This document shows, one piece after another, positions 20,032 through 35,419 of a DNA stretch of 64,000 nt. The position numbers and the translations under genes were made by a program. The first letter of the stretch is position 1; each line of letters starts with the position of its first letter. The notes beneath the pieces were generated by a model. It saw only the letters and a list, made by a program, of their open reading frames with translations, searched no databases and was not told the origin of the DNA. Origin of the DNA: Kiritimatiellales bacterium (GTDB taxonomy: Bacteria; Verrucomicrobiota; Kiritimatiellia; Kiritimatiellales; Pontiellaceae); the NCBI GenBank assembly GCA_003246265.1, contig QKAU01000006.1, positions 62,001-126,000 on the forward strand, written 5' to 3'.

Positions 20032-20510
20032 GGCGTCGCCAAACACACCATCCGATGCGAAACCACGCAGGCTTCACCCTGATCGAGATCGTGCTCGCCC
20101 TGCTGGTGGTCACCGTCGGCATCGTAGCGATGACCGGCCTGCTGGCAACGTCGCTCGACACGTCGACGGAGACCCAGGACGACCTCCGCATCGTCGGCTT
20201 CGCCGAGCTGGTGCTCAACCATCTCCATGCCCGGTCCGACTTCGGATCCATCCCCGCCTCGGGAACGCTTGCCATCTCCGACTATGCAGGGGGAACGGCA
20301 AACCTTGAGATCGGACCGGCCACCCCGTTCGAATACCGCCTGCCCGGTGCGACAGGAGCCGAAGCCGTCCGCTATCCGCTCACCTACCGGCTGGCGATCC
20401 GCGCGGCGGGGAACATCCTTGAAGTGCTGCTGGAGGTCTGGCCCGGCTACGGCACCGCCGGCAACCCGCGCATCTTCTACACCGAACTCTACGACTGGCC
20501 GAAGTTATGA
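20028..20510 (+). CDS. GspI-like minor pseudopilin
   Basis: This 160-residue protein has the prepilin motif HAGFTLIEIVLALLVVTVGI near its start (Gly-1, Phe+1, Glu+5) and a short periplasmic domain. Small size and the LLVVTVGIVAMTGLLATS helix fit GspI, the smallest of the type II secretion minor pseudopilins. Start and stop overlap both neighbours by ATGA. Confidence 0.75.
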   Translation: MRRRQTHHPMRNHAGFTLIEIVLALLVVTVGIVAMTGLLATSLDTSTETQDDLRIVGFAELVLNHLHARSDFGSIPASGTLAISDYAGGTANLEIGPATPFEYRLPGATGAEAVRYPLTYRLAIRAAGNILEVLLEVWPGYGTAGNPRIFYTELYDWPKL

Positions 20511-21349
20511 GCCCGCGGCGAACATACAAGGAGGGCTTTACGCTGCTCGAGCTGCTACTGGCCGTCGCGATCCTCGCGATGATCGCCCTGATGATGGCGC
20601 GCATCTTCGCCGCCAGCTCCGAGGCAGTCGAACGCGGCAAGCGCAACGCCATGCTCGACGAAGCCGCGCGCCTCCTGCTCGATACCATCGAGCGCGACGT
20701 GGGCCAGGCGGTTCTCCGCACCAACATCCCGCTCCGCGTCCACTCCGTGGCAGGCTTCGACGCCTTGTACTTCGTCTCGCCGGGCGTCCGGCGCGCCACC
20801 GAAACCATGCCAAGAGATACCGCCCCCATGCGCATCCGCCTCGCCAACACCGCATCGGCCCTCAACGGGCTCGTTCCCGACTGGAACTGGCACTTGGTCG
20901 TCGAATCGGCCATCGGCACGACCAACACGCTCGACAAGCTGATCCGCTCGTCCGACTACTACGCCACCAATGCCGCGCAGGCCGTCGCCGATTTCATGCC
21001 GGCCCGCGGCGGTGCGGCGATGGGGCGCAGCGAAGCCGAATATACCCTGCCGCTGGAAACCTTGCAGGGCACCGAAAACCACGTCATGCCGACTTTTGTC
21101 GATTTCAATATCAACGGCGACCCGGACAGCAACGTCTCGGCCTCCGCCATGCCCGAAGTGCGCGACCTGCCCCGCTTCGTGGATGTCGTTCTCGGGCTGG
21201 CGGCGTCCAGCGACATTGCGCAGGCCATGCGGCTGCATGCCGCCCAAGGCGCGGAGGCGGCCGAAGCCTACCTCCAGAAGCACGAGCGCATCTATGCGCG
21301 GCGCATCCCGATCCGCAACACCGGCATACTTCCCCCACCCTCCCCATGA
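20507..21349 (+). CDS. GspJ-like minor pseudopilin
   Basis: This 280-residue protein carries the prepilin segment EGFTLLELLLAVAILAMIALMM with Glu+5, then a longer beta-rich head. The conserved LDTIERDVGQAV after the helix is typical of GspJ, which forms the tip complex with GspI and GspK. It starts by ATGA overlap with the GspI-like gene and ends by ATGA overlap with the GspK-like gene. Confidence 0.75.
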   Translation: MSPRRTYKEGFTLLELLLAVAILAMIALMMARIFAASSEAVERGKRNAMLDEAARLLLDTIERDVGQAVLRTNIPLRVHSVAGFDALYFVSPGVRRATETMPRDTAPMRIRLANTASALNGLVPDWNWHLVVESAIGTTNTLDKLIRSSDYYATNAAQAVADFMPARGGAAMGRSEAEYTLPLETLQGTENHVMPTFVDFNINGDPDSNVSASAMPEVRDLPRFVDVVLGLAASSDIAQAMRLHAAQGAEAAEAYLQKHERIYARRIPIRNTGILPPPSP

Positions 21350-23691
21350 CTGCTTGCGTCCATAGGAAGTCCGGCGCCGCGCTGGTGATCGTCCTCGGCT
21401 TCCTGGCCGTATTGACGGTCATCGTGCTGGCCTTCTCCACCCAGATGCGGACCGAGCGTCTCGCCGGGCGGGCGTTTCTCGACACCGCGCAGACTCGCCA
21501 ACTGCTGGATGCCGCCCTCGCCCGCGCCATGGAGGAGATCGATCTGGAGACGGGCAGTTCCATCTTTCCCTCCTTCCTGGCGCTGGAGTCGTCCGCCCCC
21601 GGGCCGGTCTCCTTCGTTGCCGATGCCGTCGATTTCGGCATGGCCGACGACTACCTTCCCCTAGGCGACGCTACGCTCGCGGAGGCGTACCGGAGCGCTC
21701 TCGACAATGCCCGCTGGCAGACCGTGTCGGTCGGGAACGATGCGGTGGGACGCATCGGCTACGTGATTGTCAACACCTCGGGCCTGCTGGATGCCAACCA
21801 TGCCGGCGGCCTCGATGCATCCGGAACCCTGGTGGCGCGCGGGAAGGGGGAATCCCCCGCCGAACTGCAGCTCGCGCCCGAGCTTTTGCGGGAATTGACA
21901 GACCCGGGCTCCGCGACCGGCTTCCTCAAGGGAAGGATCGACCGCTGGCGGCGATTCGAAACCCTGCGCGACCTCGCCCAACTCAACCGCATCGGCACCG
22001 CCCCGCCTTTTGAAGGGGCCATCGGGAACTTCTCTGTCTTCTCCTTCTTCCCCGAACCCCCGCTGGCCACCGGCCAGCGCTACATGGGATCGACCGAAGC
22101 GGAAATCTCCGCGAACCGGCAGGCCATCGCCGATGCCCTTGACGCGATCGGCCTCGATGCCGAAAACCAGCGTCTTGTGCTTGCCCAGCTGCTCGACTAT
22201 GTCGACGCCGATTCCATCCCACGAAGCCTCGACTATGGCGTGGAACCGGTACCGCTCATCAATGAAGTCGTGCTGGAGTGCCACTTCGCCTTCACGCCCG
22301 TCGTGGAGGAGACGATCGATGCCGCGACCGGGGTGCTGCTGAGAACGGTCAAGGAGGTCGTGGTGACCAACAGTTTCCGCGTTGCCGGCGAAGCCTGGTA
22401 CCCCTTCGCCCTGGCCGAAAACCGCAATGCATACCGACTGGAGAGTAGCGCCGCAACGGATGCCCTGCCCCGCGAGCTGTTCGGCGAGGTCCAGTGGATG
22501 CGAGACGCCCCGTTGCCGCCGGCCGAATGGCGCTACGGCGACCCGCCCGCCGTCGCGATCCTTGCCTCCAACCTGGTCGACCACTCGTACACCTCGACCC
22601 AATCGCTCTTCGCCGCCTTCGAGGAGATGGCCGACGATTTCGGCCTTCCCGAAATCCGCTGCATCGAAACGTCCAGCGGCACGGCGGTGGATGCCGTGGA
22701 GGGCCTTGGCCTCCCGCTGGCCAACAGCGTAGACGAGGTGCTGCTGCCCGCGGTGCGGGATCTGGTCGCTGAAATCTACGCCGCAGCAGTCGACGGGGAG
22801 ACCCGCGAACTGCCGTTTGCGGTCGGACGGGCGGTGGTCGACCCGCGCCTCAACTGGAGTGGCGGCAATACGAACCTCTGGATCGAGGTGGGTGACAACG
22901 GCGCCGCTCCGGCTACCCTTGGGGGCGTCAACAGCGGCATCATCGACGCCCCCGGCATCGTGGAAACCCCCGACCCGATCGGCACCATCCATGTCCGGAA
23001 CGAGGGCATCATCGAGAGCCCCTACGAATTCACCTATTTCCTCTACGACCGGAACAAGCCCTGGCGCACCTTCCAGTTCTTCCGGGAAAACGACCGCGAC
23101 AATACCCGCTTCCTCGCAGACCATCTGGCCACCAGTCCCGTCCATGCACCCGGTTCCGGCTGGATCAATCCCAACTCCCTGAACAGCAATGTGCTGGCCA
23201 CCGCCTTCCTCGGGATGCCGGTCGGCGAGTTCACGCGCGACGACCTGTCGGCCGAACCGCGCGTCGCCTCCGCAGCGGCGTACCGCCTCGCGCAGCTGGT
23301 CATGGACAACCGCCTGTACGGCACGCGCAAGGAGCTGGCCGACCGCCTGGCCAATGCGGCCGACTATGCGCGCATCGACGACGCCATCGAGGGCAGTCCA
23401 TGGAAGAAGGAGAGCCTCCTGCGCAACGGCACGGGGCTCTTTGATCCCCGCGACACGCTGTTTGCTGTCCTGCTGGTGGCCCAGAACGCCCGCGATGCCG
23501 ACCACGACGGACAGGTCGGCAACGGCGAGGTCCAGTCGACCCAACGGGCCATCGCCTATGTCTGGCGCGATCCCGCAACGGGCGAGGCCGCCTGCGTCTT
23601 CTGGGGCCTGGCCGACACCCTCCAGAGTTCCATCGGCAGCGCGGGCACCACCTGGGGTACGCTGCTGGAAACGTTCCGGCCGTACCGCTGA
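21346..23691 (+). CDS. GspK-like large pseudopilin (Verru_Chthon cassette A-like)
   Basis: This 781-residue protein begins SGAALVIVLGFLAVLTVIVLAF, a GspK-type pseudopilin helix that lacks Glu+5, as GspK does, so it should cap the tip complex. A QTRQLLDAALARAMEEID segment follows. The very large head (over 700 residues against about 300 in GspK) matches the scale of cassette protein A. Near residue 725 the motif DADHDGQVGNGEV is a dockerin/EF-hand-like calcium loop. It is the last gene of the coupled cassette. Confidence 0.75.
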   Translation: MTACVHRKSGAALVIVLGFLAVLTVIVLAFSTQMRTERLAGRAFLDTAQTRQLLDAALARAMEEIDLETGSSIFPSFLALESSAPGPVSFVADAVDFGMADDYLPLGDATLAEAYRSALDNARWQTVSVGNDAVGRIGYVIVNTSGLLDANHAGGLDASGTLVARGKGESPAELQLAPELLRELTDPGSATGFLKGRIDRWRRFETLRDLAQLNRIGTAPPFEGAIGNFSVFSFFPEPPLATGQRYMGSTEAEISANRQAIADALDAIGLDAENQRLVLAQLLDYVDADSIPRSLDYGVEPVPLINEVVLECHFAFTPVVEETIDAATGVLLRTVKEVVVTNSFRVAGEAWYPFALAENRNAYRLESSAATDALPRELFGEVQWMRDAPLPPAEWRYGDPPAVAILASNLVDHSYTSTQSLFAAFEEMADDFGLPEIRCIETSSGTAVDAVEGLGLPLANSVDEVLLPAVRDLVAEIYAAAVDGETRELPFAVGRAVVDPRLNWSGGNTNLWIEVGDNGAAPATLGGVNSGIIDAPGIVETPDPIGTIHVRNEGIIESPYEFTYFLYDRNKPWRTFQFFRENDRDNTRFLADHLATSPVHAPGSGWINPNSLNSNVLATAFLGMPVGEFTRDDLSAEPRVASAAAYRLAQLVMDNRLYGTRKELADRLANAADYARIDDAIEGSPWKKESLLRNGTGLFDPRDTLFAVLLVAQNARDADHDGQVGNGEVQSTQRAIAYVWRDPATGEAACVFWGLADTLQSSIGSAGTTWGTLLETFRPYR

Positions 23692-23710
23692 CATTTCCGT
23701 GGTTTCGGGA

Positions 23711-23739
23711 TTTCCAACCCCGGAGGTTTGGCCTATACA
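23711..23739 (+). promoter_or_regulatory. Candidate promoter of the FmdB-type gene
   Basis: TTTCCA at 23711-23716, 17 bp spacer, TATACA at 23734-23739. The leader to the ATG at 23764 would be about 18 bases and includes an ACGAGGAAT ribosome site. Confidence 0.5.
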
Positions 23740-23763
23740 CGGCGGACGCAAACGAGGAATCCC

Positions 23764-24000
23764 ATGCCGATTTTTGAATACAGCTGCAAGAAGTGCGGCG
23801 CCGCCTTCGAGATGCTCGTGGCCCACGCCGACACGACCGTCTCCTGTGCCGCCTGCGGTTCCAGGCGGGTTGAAAAACTCTTCTCGACCTTCAGTGCCAG
23901 CGTGGCCAACCCTGCGCCCGTCCCCTGCGCCGCCGGAGGATGCCCCTCGACGGGCATGGCCGGCACCGGATGCTCGGGCGGCGGATGTCCGTTCAGCTAG
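23764..24000 (+). CDS. FmdB-family zinc-ribbon protein
   Basis: This 78-residue protein starts MPIFEYSCKKCGAAFE and continues with SCAACGSRRVEKLFSTFSAS, the two CxxC knuckles of the FmdB/CxxC_CxxC_SSSS zinc ribbon. A second cysteine-rich tail (CAAGGCPSTG...CSGGGCPFS) is common in this family. Function is usually annotated as putative regulatory and is unproven. The internal ATG at 23764 is chosen because the earlier residues are not part of the family. It lies 12 bp before the polyprenyl synthase gene. Confidence 0.85.
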   Translation: MPIFEYSCKKCGAAFEMLVAHADTTVSCAACGSRRVEKLFSTFSASVANPAPVPCAAGGCPSTGMAGTGCSGGGCPFS

Positions 24001-24012
24001 CGGGACAATGCC

Positions 24013-24879
24013 ATGAGCGATATCGCCAACTACCTGAAGATGAAACAGGCGCTGATCGACCGCGCACTCAAGGACTGCCTGCCGCCCGCCGCAGCCCGGC
24101 CGGCCCTGCTGCACGAGGCGATGGTCTACTGTGTCCTCAATGGGGGAAAGCGCATCCGCCCCATCCTCTGCCTTGCCGCCGCCGAGGCGTTCGGCGTCCG
24201 GAATGCCGATGCGCTCGCGCCAGCCCTCGCGGTGGAGCTTTTCCACTGCTCCACCCTGATCCACGACGACCTGCCCTGCATGGATGACGACGACCTGCGC
24301 CGCGGCCAACCCACGTGCCACATCAAGTTCGGCGAGGCGAATGCGGTCCTGGCTGGCGATGCGCTGATGATCCACGCGTTCCAGGTGCTGGCCGAGGCGG
24401 GCAGCGCGCGGCTTGCGCTCGAGCTTGCCCGCGCGGCGGGTTCGCGCGGCGTCATTGCCGGCCAGGTCGAGGACCTGGCGGCGGAGAATCTGCCGCCAAA
24501 CGCCGATCTGCTGGATTTCATCCATCTCAACAAGACGGCGGTACTGATCCGCGCCGCCGTGCGCATGGGGGCGATCGCCGGCCGGGCACGCGAGGACGAA
24601 ATCGAGAACCTGAGCCTGTTCGGGGAGAAGATCGGGCTCGCGTTCCAGATCGAGGACGACATCCTCGACGAAACCTCGACCGACGAGATCCTTGGGAAGC
24701 CCGCCCACTCGGACCAGCGGCAGCACAAGATGACCTATCCCTCCGTCCACGGCCTGGAAGCGGCCAAGGAGTGCGCCAGGCAGCTTACGCGCGAAGCCAT
24801 CGCCGCCCTCGATCCGCTCTCGTGCGACACCACGGCGTTGCAGGGCATTGCGGACTACCTCGTCACTAGGGCCTACTGA
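24013..24879 (+). CDS. Polyprenyl (farnesyl/geranylgeranyl) diphosphate synthase
   Basis: This trans-isoprenyl diphosphate synthase of 288 residues joins IPP to allylic diphosphates. It shows NGGKRIRP, the first aspartate-rich motif HDDLPCMDDDDLRRG in the bacterial farnesyl-type form with two residues between aspartates, GQVEDL, and the second motif FQIEDDILD. The best match is IspA-type farnesyl diphosphate synthase, though chain length cannot be fixed by eye. Its 3' end overlaps the convergent potassium channel gene by 7 bp. Confidence 0.9.
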   Translation: MSDIANYLKMKQALIDRALKDCLPPAAARPALLHEAMVYCVLNGGKRIRPILCLAAAEAFGVRNADALAPALAVELFHCSTLIHDDLPCMDDDDLRRGQPTCHIKFGEANAVLAGDALMIHAFQVLAEAGSARLALELARAAGSRGVIAGQVEDLAAENLPPNADLLDFIHLNKTAVLIRAAVRMGAIAGRAREDEIENLSLFGEKIGLAFQIEDDILDETSTDEILGKPAHSDQRQHKMTYPSVHGLEAAKECARQLTREAIAALDPLSCDTTALQGIADYLVTRAY

Positions 24880-25697
24880 CCCCCCGGCGATCCGAGCTGG
24901 ACACCGCATCTGCGGCAGAAGCTTGCGCCGGTTTCATGGCCGTCGATCCCGCATCCAGGACAGCGGCGCGCCGTCTCCCGGCGCGGTCCGGCCAAGCCCA
25001 GCTCCGCGGTGATGATCCCGGTCGGCACGGCGATGATGCTGTAGCCGATGATCATGATGACCGCCGCCAGGGCCTGGCCGAGGCTGGTCTGCGGCGAGAT
25101 GTCGCCGTAGCCGACGGTGGTCAGGGTGACGATGGCCCAGTAGACCGAGCGCGGAATGCTGGAGAATCCATTGGTGCCGCCTTCGATCACGTACATCAGC
25201 GAACCAAGGATCACGACGATGGTCATCACCGCCACCAGGAAGATGCCGATCTTGCGCCGGCTGGCCACGAGCGCGTTGAGAAGCAGGTCGGCCTCGCCCA
25301 CGTACTGCGCCATCTTCAGGACGCGGAAGATGCGGAGCATCCGCAGGACCTTGACGACGTCGAGGAAGCGCGTGCCCGGCACCAGCAGGCCCACATAGAA
25401 CGGGAGCACCGCCAGCAGGTCGACGATGCCGAAGAAGCTTCGCGCGTAGCGCACCGGCTGGCGGGCGCAGTAGAGGCGCAACGCGTACTCGACCGTGAAG
25501 AGGCCCGTGAACGCGGCGTTGAGCACGAACAGCAGGGTCTCGTGGCGCTGCGCCATCGAGTGGACGCTGGCGAGCATCGTCGTGCAGACGCTGGCCATGA
25601 TCGCCGCGAAGAGCAGCACGTCGAAGAGCTTCCCGCCCGGCGTGTCGGCTTCGAAGATGACGACGTAGAGTTGCTCCCTGATCCGGTTCCTATCCAT
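24873..25697 (-). CDS. Voltage-gated potassium channel with C-terminal zinc ribbon
   Basis: This 274-residue inner-membrane channel has six predicted helices. The S4 voltage sensor is visible as regularly spaced arginines (KVLRMLRIFRVLKM), and the pore carries the selectivity filter TTVGYGD between S5 and S6. After S6 (IMIIGYSIIAVPTGIITAE) a short tail contains CPGCG and CRRCG, a small zinc ribbon seen in some bacterial Kv proteins. The start at 25697 overlaps the upstream kinase stop by 8 bp, so the two are coupled. The same frame is open further upstream, but that sequence belongs to the kinase gene. Confidence 0.88.
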   Translation of the reverse strand: MDRNRIREQLYVVIFEADTPGGKLFDVLLFAAIMASVCTTMLASVHSMAQRHETLLFVLNAAFTGLFTVEYALRLYCARQPVRYARSFFGIVDLLAVLPFYVGLLVPGTRFLDVVKVLRMLRIFRVLKMAQYVGEADLLLNALVASRRKIGIFLVAVMTIVVILGSLMYVIEGGTNGFSSIPRSVYWAIVTLTTVGYGDISPQTSLGQALAAVIMIIGYSIIAVPTGIITAELGLAGPRRETARRCPGCGIDGHETGASFCRRCGVQLGSPGGQ

Positions 25698-34060: not shown

Positions 34061-34243
34061 ATGGCAACAAACCCTATCGGAAAAAACACAAAAACCATTG
34101 GCATCAACATGTCCAAGCAAATGGCGGAAGAACTTGAGAACCGGGCGAATTCCATGCACCTGTCCACAAGCAAGTACTGCAAGGTCATCCTGACCGAGTG
34201 GCTCAAGTCCGGCAAGAAGCTGACGCTTCAGGAAAAGAAGTAG
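34061..34243 (+). CDS. Small ribbon-helix-helix-like protein (60 aa)
   Basis: This 60-residue protein reads TKTIGINMSKQMAEELENRA followed by STSKYCKVILTEWLKSGK, the strand-helix-helix pattern of Arc/MetJ/CopG-type DNA-binding proteins; the strand would be KTIGINM. A GGTGAGG site lies eight bases before the ATG, and a terminator follows at 34269, so it is a free-standing gene. No toxin partner or adjacent target gene is evident, which makes an orphan regulator more likely than an antitoxin. Confidence 0.7.
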   Translation: MATNPIGKNTKTIGINMSKQMAEELENRANSMHLSTSKYCKVILTEWLKSGKKLTLQEKK

Positions 34244-34355: not shown

Positions 34356-34384
34356 TTGACAACCTGGCCCAAAATCGCTAGGTT
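34356..34384 (+). promoter_or_regulatory. Promoter of the small basic protein gene
   Basis: A perfect TTGACA at 34356-34361, 17 bp spacer and TAGGTT at 34379-34384. It is the best -35 match in the window, in keeping with a highly expressed small gene. Confidence 0.7.
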
Positions 34385-34424
34385 GCGCCTTCATTTTTCA
34401 GGAAACAACCGACGGAGAACCACC

Positions 34425-34608
34425 ATGTCCATGCACAGCAGCCTCAAGGGTGCCGCCAAGATCCGCACCAAGCGCAATGTCCTCAAGCGTTTCGAACGCG
34501 TCGACGTGCTCAAGAAGAACGGTCGGCGTCGACGTGCTCAAGAAGAACGGTCGGTGGAAGGAAGGCGATCGCGCCTTCGGCCTGCCCAAGACCAAGTCCG
34601 AAGGATAG
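34425..34608 (+). pseudogene. PVC small basic protein gene disrupted by a 28-bp tandem duplication
   Basis: The gene starts MSMHSSLKGAAKIRTKRNVL and continues KRFERVDVLKKNGR, matching the small basic protein family found in Chlamydiae, Verrucomicrobia and Planctomycetes. The family C-terminus (WKEGDRAFGLPKTKSEG, stop at 34606-34608) is present but in another frame, because a 28-bp unit at 34499-34526 is repeated exactly at 34527-34554. Removing one copy restores an intact 51-residue protein. As written, translation would run on out of frame to a stop at 34757. Promoter, ribosome site (GGAG) and terminator are intact, so this is either a very recent mutation or an assembly error. Confidence 0.8.
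34498..34554. repeat. Perfect 28-bp tandem duplication inside the small basic protein gene
   Basis: Period-28 identity extends over 57 bases (two copies plus one base). The unit encodes the VDVLKKNGR segment. Its length is not a multiple of three, so it shifts the reading frame by one. Confidence 0.95.
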
Positions 34609-34630
34609 GCAGGGCCACCTGGCTTTACCA

Positions 34631-34664
34631 GCACTCCGGCCCCGGGTCCGGAGTGCTTTTTTTT
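34631..34664 (+). terminator. Strong intrinsic terminator after the small basic protein gene
   Basis: A perfect nine-pair stem GCACTCCGG / CCGGAGTGC with an eight-base loop is followed by eight T. It ends 12 bases before the rluB-type start at 34676. Confidence 0.92.
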
Positions 34665-34675
34665 GGATGCGATCC

Positions 34676-35419
34676 ATGGCTGAACCCCAACAGATCCGGT
34701 TGCAGAAGCATTTGGCGGACTGCGGCCTCGGCTCGCGCAGGTTCTGCGAAGAGCTGATCACGGCCGGACGTGTGCTAGTCGACGGGGAAACGGTACGCGA
34801 ACTGGGCACCCGGGTGGATCCAGAGCGGCAGAAGATTGTCTGCAACGGCAAAGTGGTGCACAGGGAACCCTCCGTCACCCTGCTGGTCAACAAGCCCCCG
34901 AAGGTGATCTGCTCTTCGAGCGATCCGCAGGGACGCACCTCGGTGCTGGACCTGATCGAAGATCTACCGGCACGCGTCTACACCGTCGGACGCCTAGACT
35001 TTATGAGCGAAGGCCTGATCATGGTGACCAACGACGGCGAACTGGCGCATGCGCTCATGCATCCGCGACACCACGTCGAAAAGGTCTACAAGGTCTGGAT
35101 CGACACGCCCCTCCAAGCACAGGAACGGGAGCGCATGAAACGGGGAGTGCCGGACCAGGGAGAGACCCTCCGCGTCATTGAAATCGACGAAGGCAGACAC
35201 ACGCGCAGCGGCGTCGAATACACGATTACCCTGGGTGAGGGTAGGAATCGCCACATTCGCCGCATGATGGCCCGTTTCGACCGGAAAGTGTACCGGTTGC
35301 TGCGGATGGCGATCGGACCCATCCGGCTGGATGGCCTCGATACAGGTCAATGGAGGTTGGCCAAGCCGTCCGAGCTCAAGTTGCTTCGGCAGGCCATTGC
35401 CGACAGGAAAACCGGGTAG
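34676..35419 (+). CDS. 23S rRNA/16S pseudouridine synthase (RluB/RsuA family)
   Basis: This 247-residue enzyme isomerises uridine in rRNA. It has an N-terminal S4 RNA-binding domain (RLQKHLADCGLGSRRFCEELI...GRVLVDG), the linker LLVNKPPKVICSSSDP, the catalytic aspartate motif GRLDFMSEGLIMVTNDGELAH and the C-terminal GRNRHIRRM. The ATG at 34676 is preferred to that at 34667 because the latter almost touches the terminator T-run. The RluB/RluE/RluF/RsuA choice cannot be settled by eye. Confidence 0.9.
   Translation: MAEPQQIRLQKHLADCGLGSRRFCEELITAGRVLVDGETVRELGTRVDPERQKIVCNGKVVHREPSVTLLVNKPPKVICSSSDPQGRTSVLDLIEDLPARVYTVGRLDFMSEGLIMVTNDGELAHALMHPRHHVEKVYKVWIDTPLQAQERERMKRGVPDQGETLRVIEIDEGRHTRSGVEYTITLGEGRNRHIRRMMARFDRKVYRLLRMAIGPIRLDGLDTGQWRLAKPSELKLLRQAIADRKTG

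Follow-up and report, generated by a model that had tools for sequence, protein, structure and literature searches.

The locus and its control elements

The window, a stretch of 64,000 nucleotides from a contig of a draft Kiritimatiellales genome, carries at 34425-34608 a gene that a profile search assigns to the NCBIfam small basic protein family TIGR04137 (Chlam_Ver_rRNA). The gene lies in its orthologous position within an order of genes common to this genome and its relatives, namely mnmA (reverse strand), a gene for a 60-residue protein, the small basic protein gene, rluB and a metY-type gene. Its neighbours are full length, in agreement with the intact surroundings that a preliminary description had noted. 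The features of the locus are as follows.

34061-34243, + strand: upstream neighbour, a conserved small protein of 60 residues, 88-93% identical in several Pontiellaceae relatives
34356-34384, + strand: promoter, TTGACA (34356-34361), 17 nucleotides, TAGGTT (34379-34384), from the sequence and the alignment of relatives
34412-34419, + strand: ribosome-binding site region, ACGGAGAA, with GGAG invariant in the aligned relatives
34425-34526, + strand: codons 1-34 of the small basic protein gene, frame 0; TIGR04137 residues 1-35; positive codon score
34498-34554, + strand: exact 28-bp tandem duplication, two units, with a matching run of 29 nucleotides; absent from the aligned relatives
34527-34757, + strand: continuation of frame 0 past the duplication, comprising 76 codons before a stop at 34755-34757; codon score -32
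34528-34608, + strand: second half of the gene in the shifted frame, with a TAG stop, encoding VDVLKKNGRWKEGDRAFGLPKTKSEG; TIGR04137 residues 26-49; positive codon score
34630-34665, + strand: intrinsic terminator, a 28-nucleotide hairpin (34630-34657) followed by eight T; position and stem kept in relatives
34667-35419, + strand: downstream neighbour, an intact RluB-type pseudouridine synthase; TIGR00093 above its cut-off, full-length orthologues in relatives

In Pfam, the matches of the upstream 60-residue protein, to CopG/NikA-like ribbon-helix-helix proteins, all fall below threshold, and it belongs to no curated family.

The control elements of the gene are conserved. Across seven aligned relatives, TTTGACA is invariant, the TA...T of the -10 box is kept and the spacing between the boxes is unchanged; the GGAG site, the start codon and the terminator are likewise maintained. 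The promoter had been called excellent, which is borne out for its presence, -35 box and spacing but overstated as a whole, given that TAGGTT matches the -10 consensus at three of six positions; a strict promoter scan does not list it. The terminator, with its hairpin and T tract, is confirmed.

A conserved small protein split between two frames

As assembled, the gene is distributed over two frames and holds no uninterrupted frame of about 50 residues. The first frame scores 52.4 bits against TIGR04137, whose curated cut-off is 50 bits, and the other frame scores 37.9 bits. When the gene is read with a single unit of the duplication, it encodes a protein of 51 residues that reaches 92 bits, among the best scores of the family, so that both the family assignment and the proposal that deleting one copy restores a 51-residue protein are upheld. 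The product resembles other family members in sequence, in its length with one unit and in its single copy, and both the N-terminal MSMHSSLK and the C-terminal W.EGDR..GLPKTK motifs are present; unlike all other members seen, its frame is broken after codon 34, in the sequence as assembled, by the 28-bp duplication. Codon usage is coding-like in each half's own frame, whereas the continuation of frame 0 beyond the duplication has the codon usage of non-coding sequence and extends past the terminator. A structure search found no solved structure matching the family.

The family probably corresponds to the CT421.2 signature protein specific to the PVC bacteria, as the descriptions of the two agree. 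The CT421.2-type PVC signature protein is treated by Gupta et al. (2012, PMC3444138), and the signature protein also by Lagkouvardos et al. (2013), here in the form in which PMC5041132 cites that work.

An exact 28-bp tandem duplication

The break in the reading frame coincides with an exact repeat of period 28 at 34498-34554, which confirms both the duplication and the frame shift proposed earlier. Specifically, the units occupy 34498-34525 and 34526-34553 and the match continues to 34554, giving a 29-nucleotide repeat on a 28-nucleotide period; the register can shift by one base, and 34499-34526 with 34527-34554 is one valid register. Because 28 leaves a remainder of 1 on division by 3, the frame changes at this point. 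The junction between the units reads CGGTCGGCGTCGACG, and a one-unit version would run from TTTCGAACGC to GTGGAAGGAAGG. The units are identical, with zero divergence between the copies. At the ends of the duplication, microhomology beyond the unit amounts to a single base, and a pair of GAACG motifs found nearby by eye is spaced at 23 rather than 28 nucleotides. Folding of the DNA at the duplication is not stronger than in shuffled sequences (z = -0.20).

A repeat of this kind is far beyond chance: five shuffles of the window produced no tandem unit of at least 12 nucleotides. Within the 1.38 Mb of the source genome that were examined, it is the exact tandem duplication with the longest period, and the four tandem units found in 0.80 Mb of four relatives assembled in few contigs all have periods of at most 21. 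A template elsewhere from which the unit might have been copied was considered and rejected, as the 16-mer CAAGAAGAACGGTCGG is confined to the two units even with one mismatch allowed.

The other tandem unit of at least 14 bp in the 1.38 Mb is a 17-bp sequence present twice (L047, 13405-13438), about 300 bases from the end of contig C12. Two further contigs of the source genome, C30 (L065) and C36 (L071), are short and consist wholly of N, their sequence having been withheld or masked.

Copy number and distribution among relatives

A search of the assembled source genome (2.997 Mb, an 81-contig draft, 96% complete) with TIGR04137 at E-values up to 10 detects the two halves at this locus and nothing else, and the suggestion of a second gene copy elsewhere is thus not supported. 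The closest proteins in a public genome collection come from Pontiellaceae and Kiritimatiellia drafts, with 80-92% identity. In a first draw, 86 of 97 relatives had a match, one each save for the source genome. In the Verrucomicrobiota genomes of at least 90% completeness, a match above the cut-off is present in 284 of 289, one per genome, and a split pair of partial matches occurs in one of these 284, the source genome alone.

Four genomes of the same genus have no match. Two of them (G003 and G014) were rejected as gene losses, as the contig boundary lies within rluB or about 100 bases ahead of it, and the other two (G008 and G022) are uninformative, since the rluB orthologue is also missing; as far as can be seen, the absence in all four reflects missing sequence.

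The 28-bp repeat is absent from this locus in all 14 relatives that were examined there, so an ancestral or lineage-wide repeat was rejected. In comparison with nine relatives, the gene differs by 14-25 synonymous and 4-8 non-synonymous codon changes. These differences are mostly synonymous and the control elements are kept; further lesions or relaxed substitution, which would indicate pseudogene decay, were not found. As judged from its sequence, the gene is free of decay apart from the duplication, and the cause of the duplication would therefore be either recent or not biological.

Origin of the duplication

The preliminary description had offered an assembly error and a recent mutation among its explanations, and both survive. 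We infer, with a probability of about 0.6, that the duplication stems from a local fault in the assembly or consensus of the draft genome. Most living cells of the species would then most likely lack it. Two overlapping contig ends that were joined without removal of the overlap would leave exactly such a scar. The run of 29 nucleotides on a period of 28 (57 = 2 x 29 - 1) would fit an untrimmed join of ends that share a 29-mer; the pattern is compatible with such a join, and the extra base could equally be due to chance. A fixed loss is unlikely, given that the phylum otherwise keeps this gene intact and that it has no back-up copy. De Bruijn assemblers normally need reads that hold the junction, which counts against an assembly error, as does the position of the site in the middle of a contig, 96 kb into 236 kb, with no N nearby. 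A systematic duplication fault of this assembly was considered and rejected, given that two exact tandem units of at least 14 bp in 1.38 Mb are no excess over the four in 0.80 Mb of the four relatives.

Spurious frameshift pseudogenes that arise from assembly are a well-documented artefact, frequent in drafts of low coverage, and have been estimated at no fewer than about one per Mb at coverage of at most 10-fold (Cooley and Wright 2024, PMC11017572). The present case resembles these in that a conserved gene is broken by one indel at an otherwise intact locus, and differs from them in that the indel is an exact 28-bp duplication, longer than a homopolymer slip. If the duplication is an assembly error, a core gene is merely missing from the annotation of this genome, and its absence is not to be scored as a gene loss.

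The main alternative, possible but less probable, is a genuine loss-of-function duplication of very recent date, carried by the sequenced strain or present as an allele of a sub-population or minority strain, that arose by a small replication error and, through the frame shift after codon 34, removed the conserved C-terminal part. The exactness of the repeat and its undiverged units are in keeping with such an event, as are its standing as the sole event of such length in the 1.38 Mb and the usual dependence of assemblers on reads across a junction. Against it stand the retention of the gene across the phylum (284 of 289 near-complete genomes), with a split in none of the others, and the lack of a second copy. 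The single base of microhomology and the GAACG spacing of 23 instead of 28 also weigh against it, making simple slippage a less favoured origin. Also in keeping with a real loss, frame 0 meets no stop before 34755 and the terminator ends at 34665, so the transcript would be non-stop; ribosomes would translate to its 3' end, and their product would presumably be rescued and degraded by tmRNA, the gene for which is present in the source genome. The C-terminal W..GDR and GLPKTK, which are among the best-conserved columns of the family, would be lost. That the duplication is not only real but also common in the population appears improbable; a Kiritimatiellia lineage would then manage without a near-universal protein of its phylum, or with one restored by occasional slippage.

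A phase-variable slipped-strand repeat, as had also been suggested, would make the gene a reversible switch in which slippage between the 28-bp units sets one unit as on and two as off. Slippage or recombination can remove exact direct repeats of this size, and a unit of 28 is not divisible by three; a repeat unit of such a length within a reading frame is also what the locus has in common with the contingency genes that vary in phase through tandem repeats. It differs from these in having two copies rather than an array, in affecting a core gene of the phylum, in not being conserved in relatives (the repeat is found at the site in 0 of 14) and in showing no sign of a second state, and the unit itself is ordinary coding sequence. 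No repeat array varying between relatives was encountered among those read at the locus, a comparison between rather than within species, and a limited literature search found no link between an on/off switch and the small basic protein family. As such, the proposed switch is very unlikely.

A programmed +1 frameshift yielding a product of 60 residues that contains an internal nine-residue repeat is scarcely credible: the coding-like halves that would speak for it are equally explained by a gene undamaged until very recently, the arrangement is found in no relative, and before 34640 there is neither a slippery heptamer (X XXY YYZ) nor a homopolymer of at least four bases, such sites occurring only in the terminator and beyond.

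Other frames in the window

Ten other oddly overlapping or adjoining frames were compared with protein families, of which nine have family matches; each pair represents two distinct families, and none consists of the halves of a split gene. Two very long frames, 20227-23691 (+ strand) and 21661-24909 (- strand), overlap on opposite strands. The antisense frame at 21661-24909 probably arises as a shadow of the G+C-rich codon usage; the true start of the + strand frame may lie later than its first start codon.
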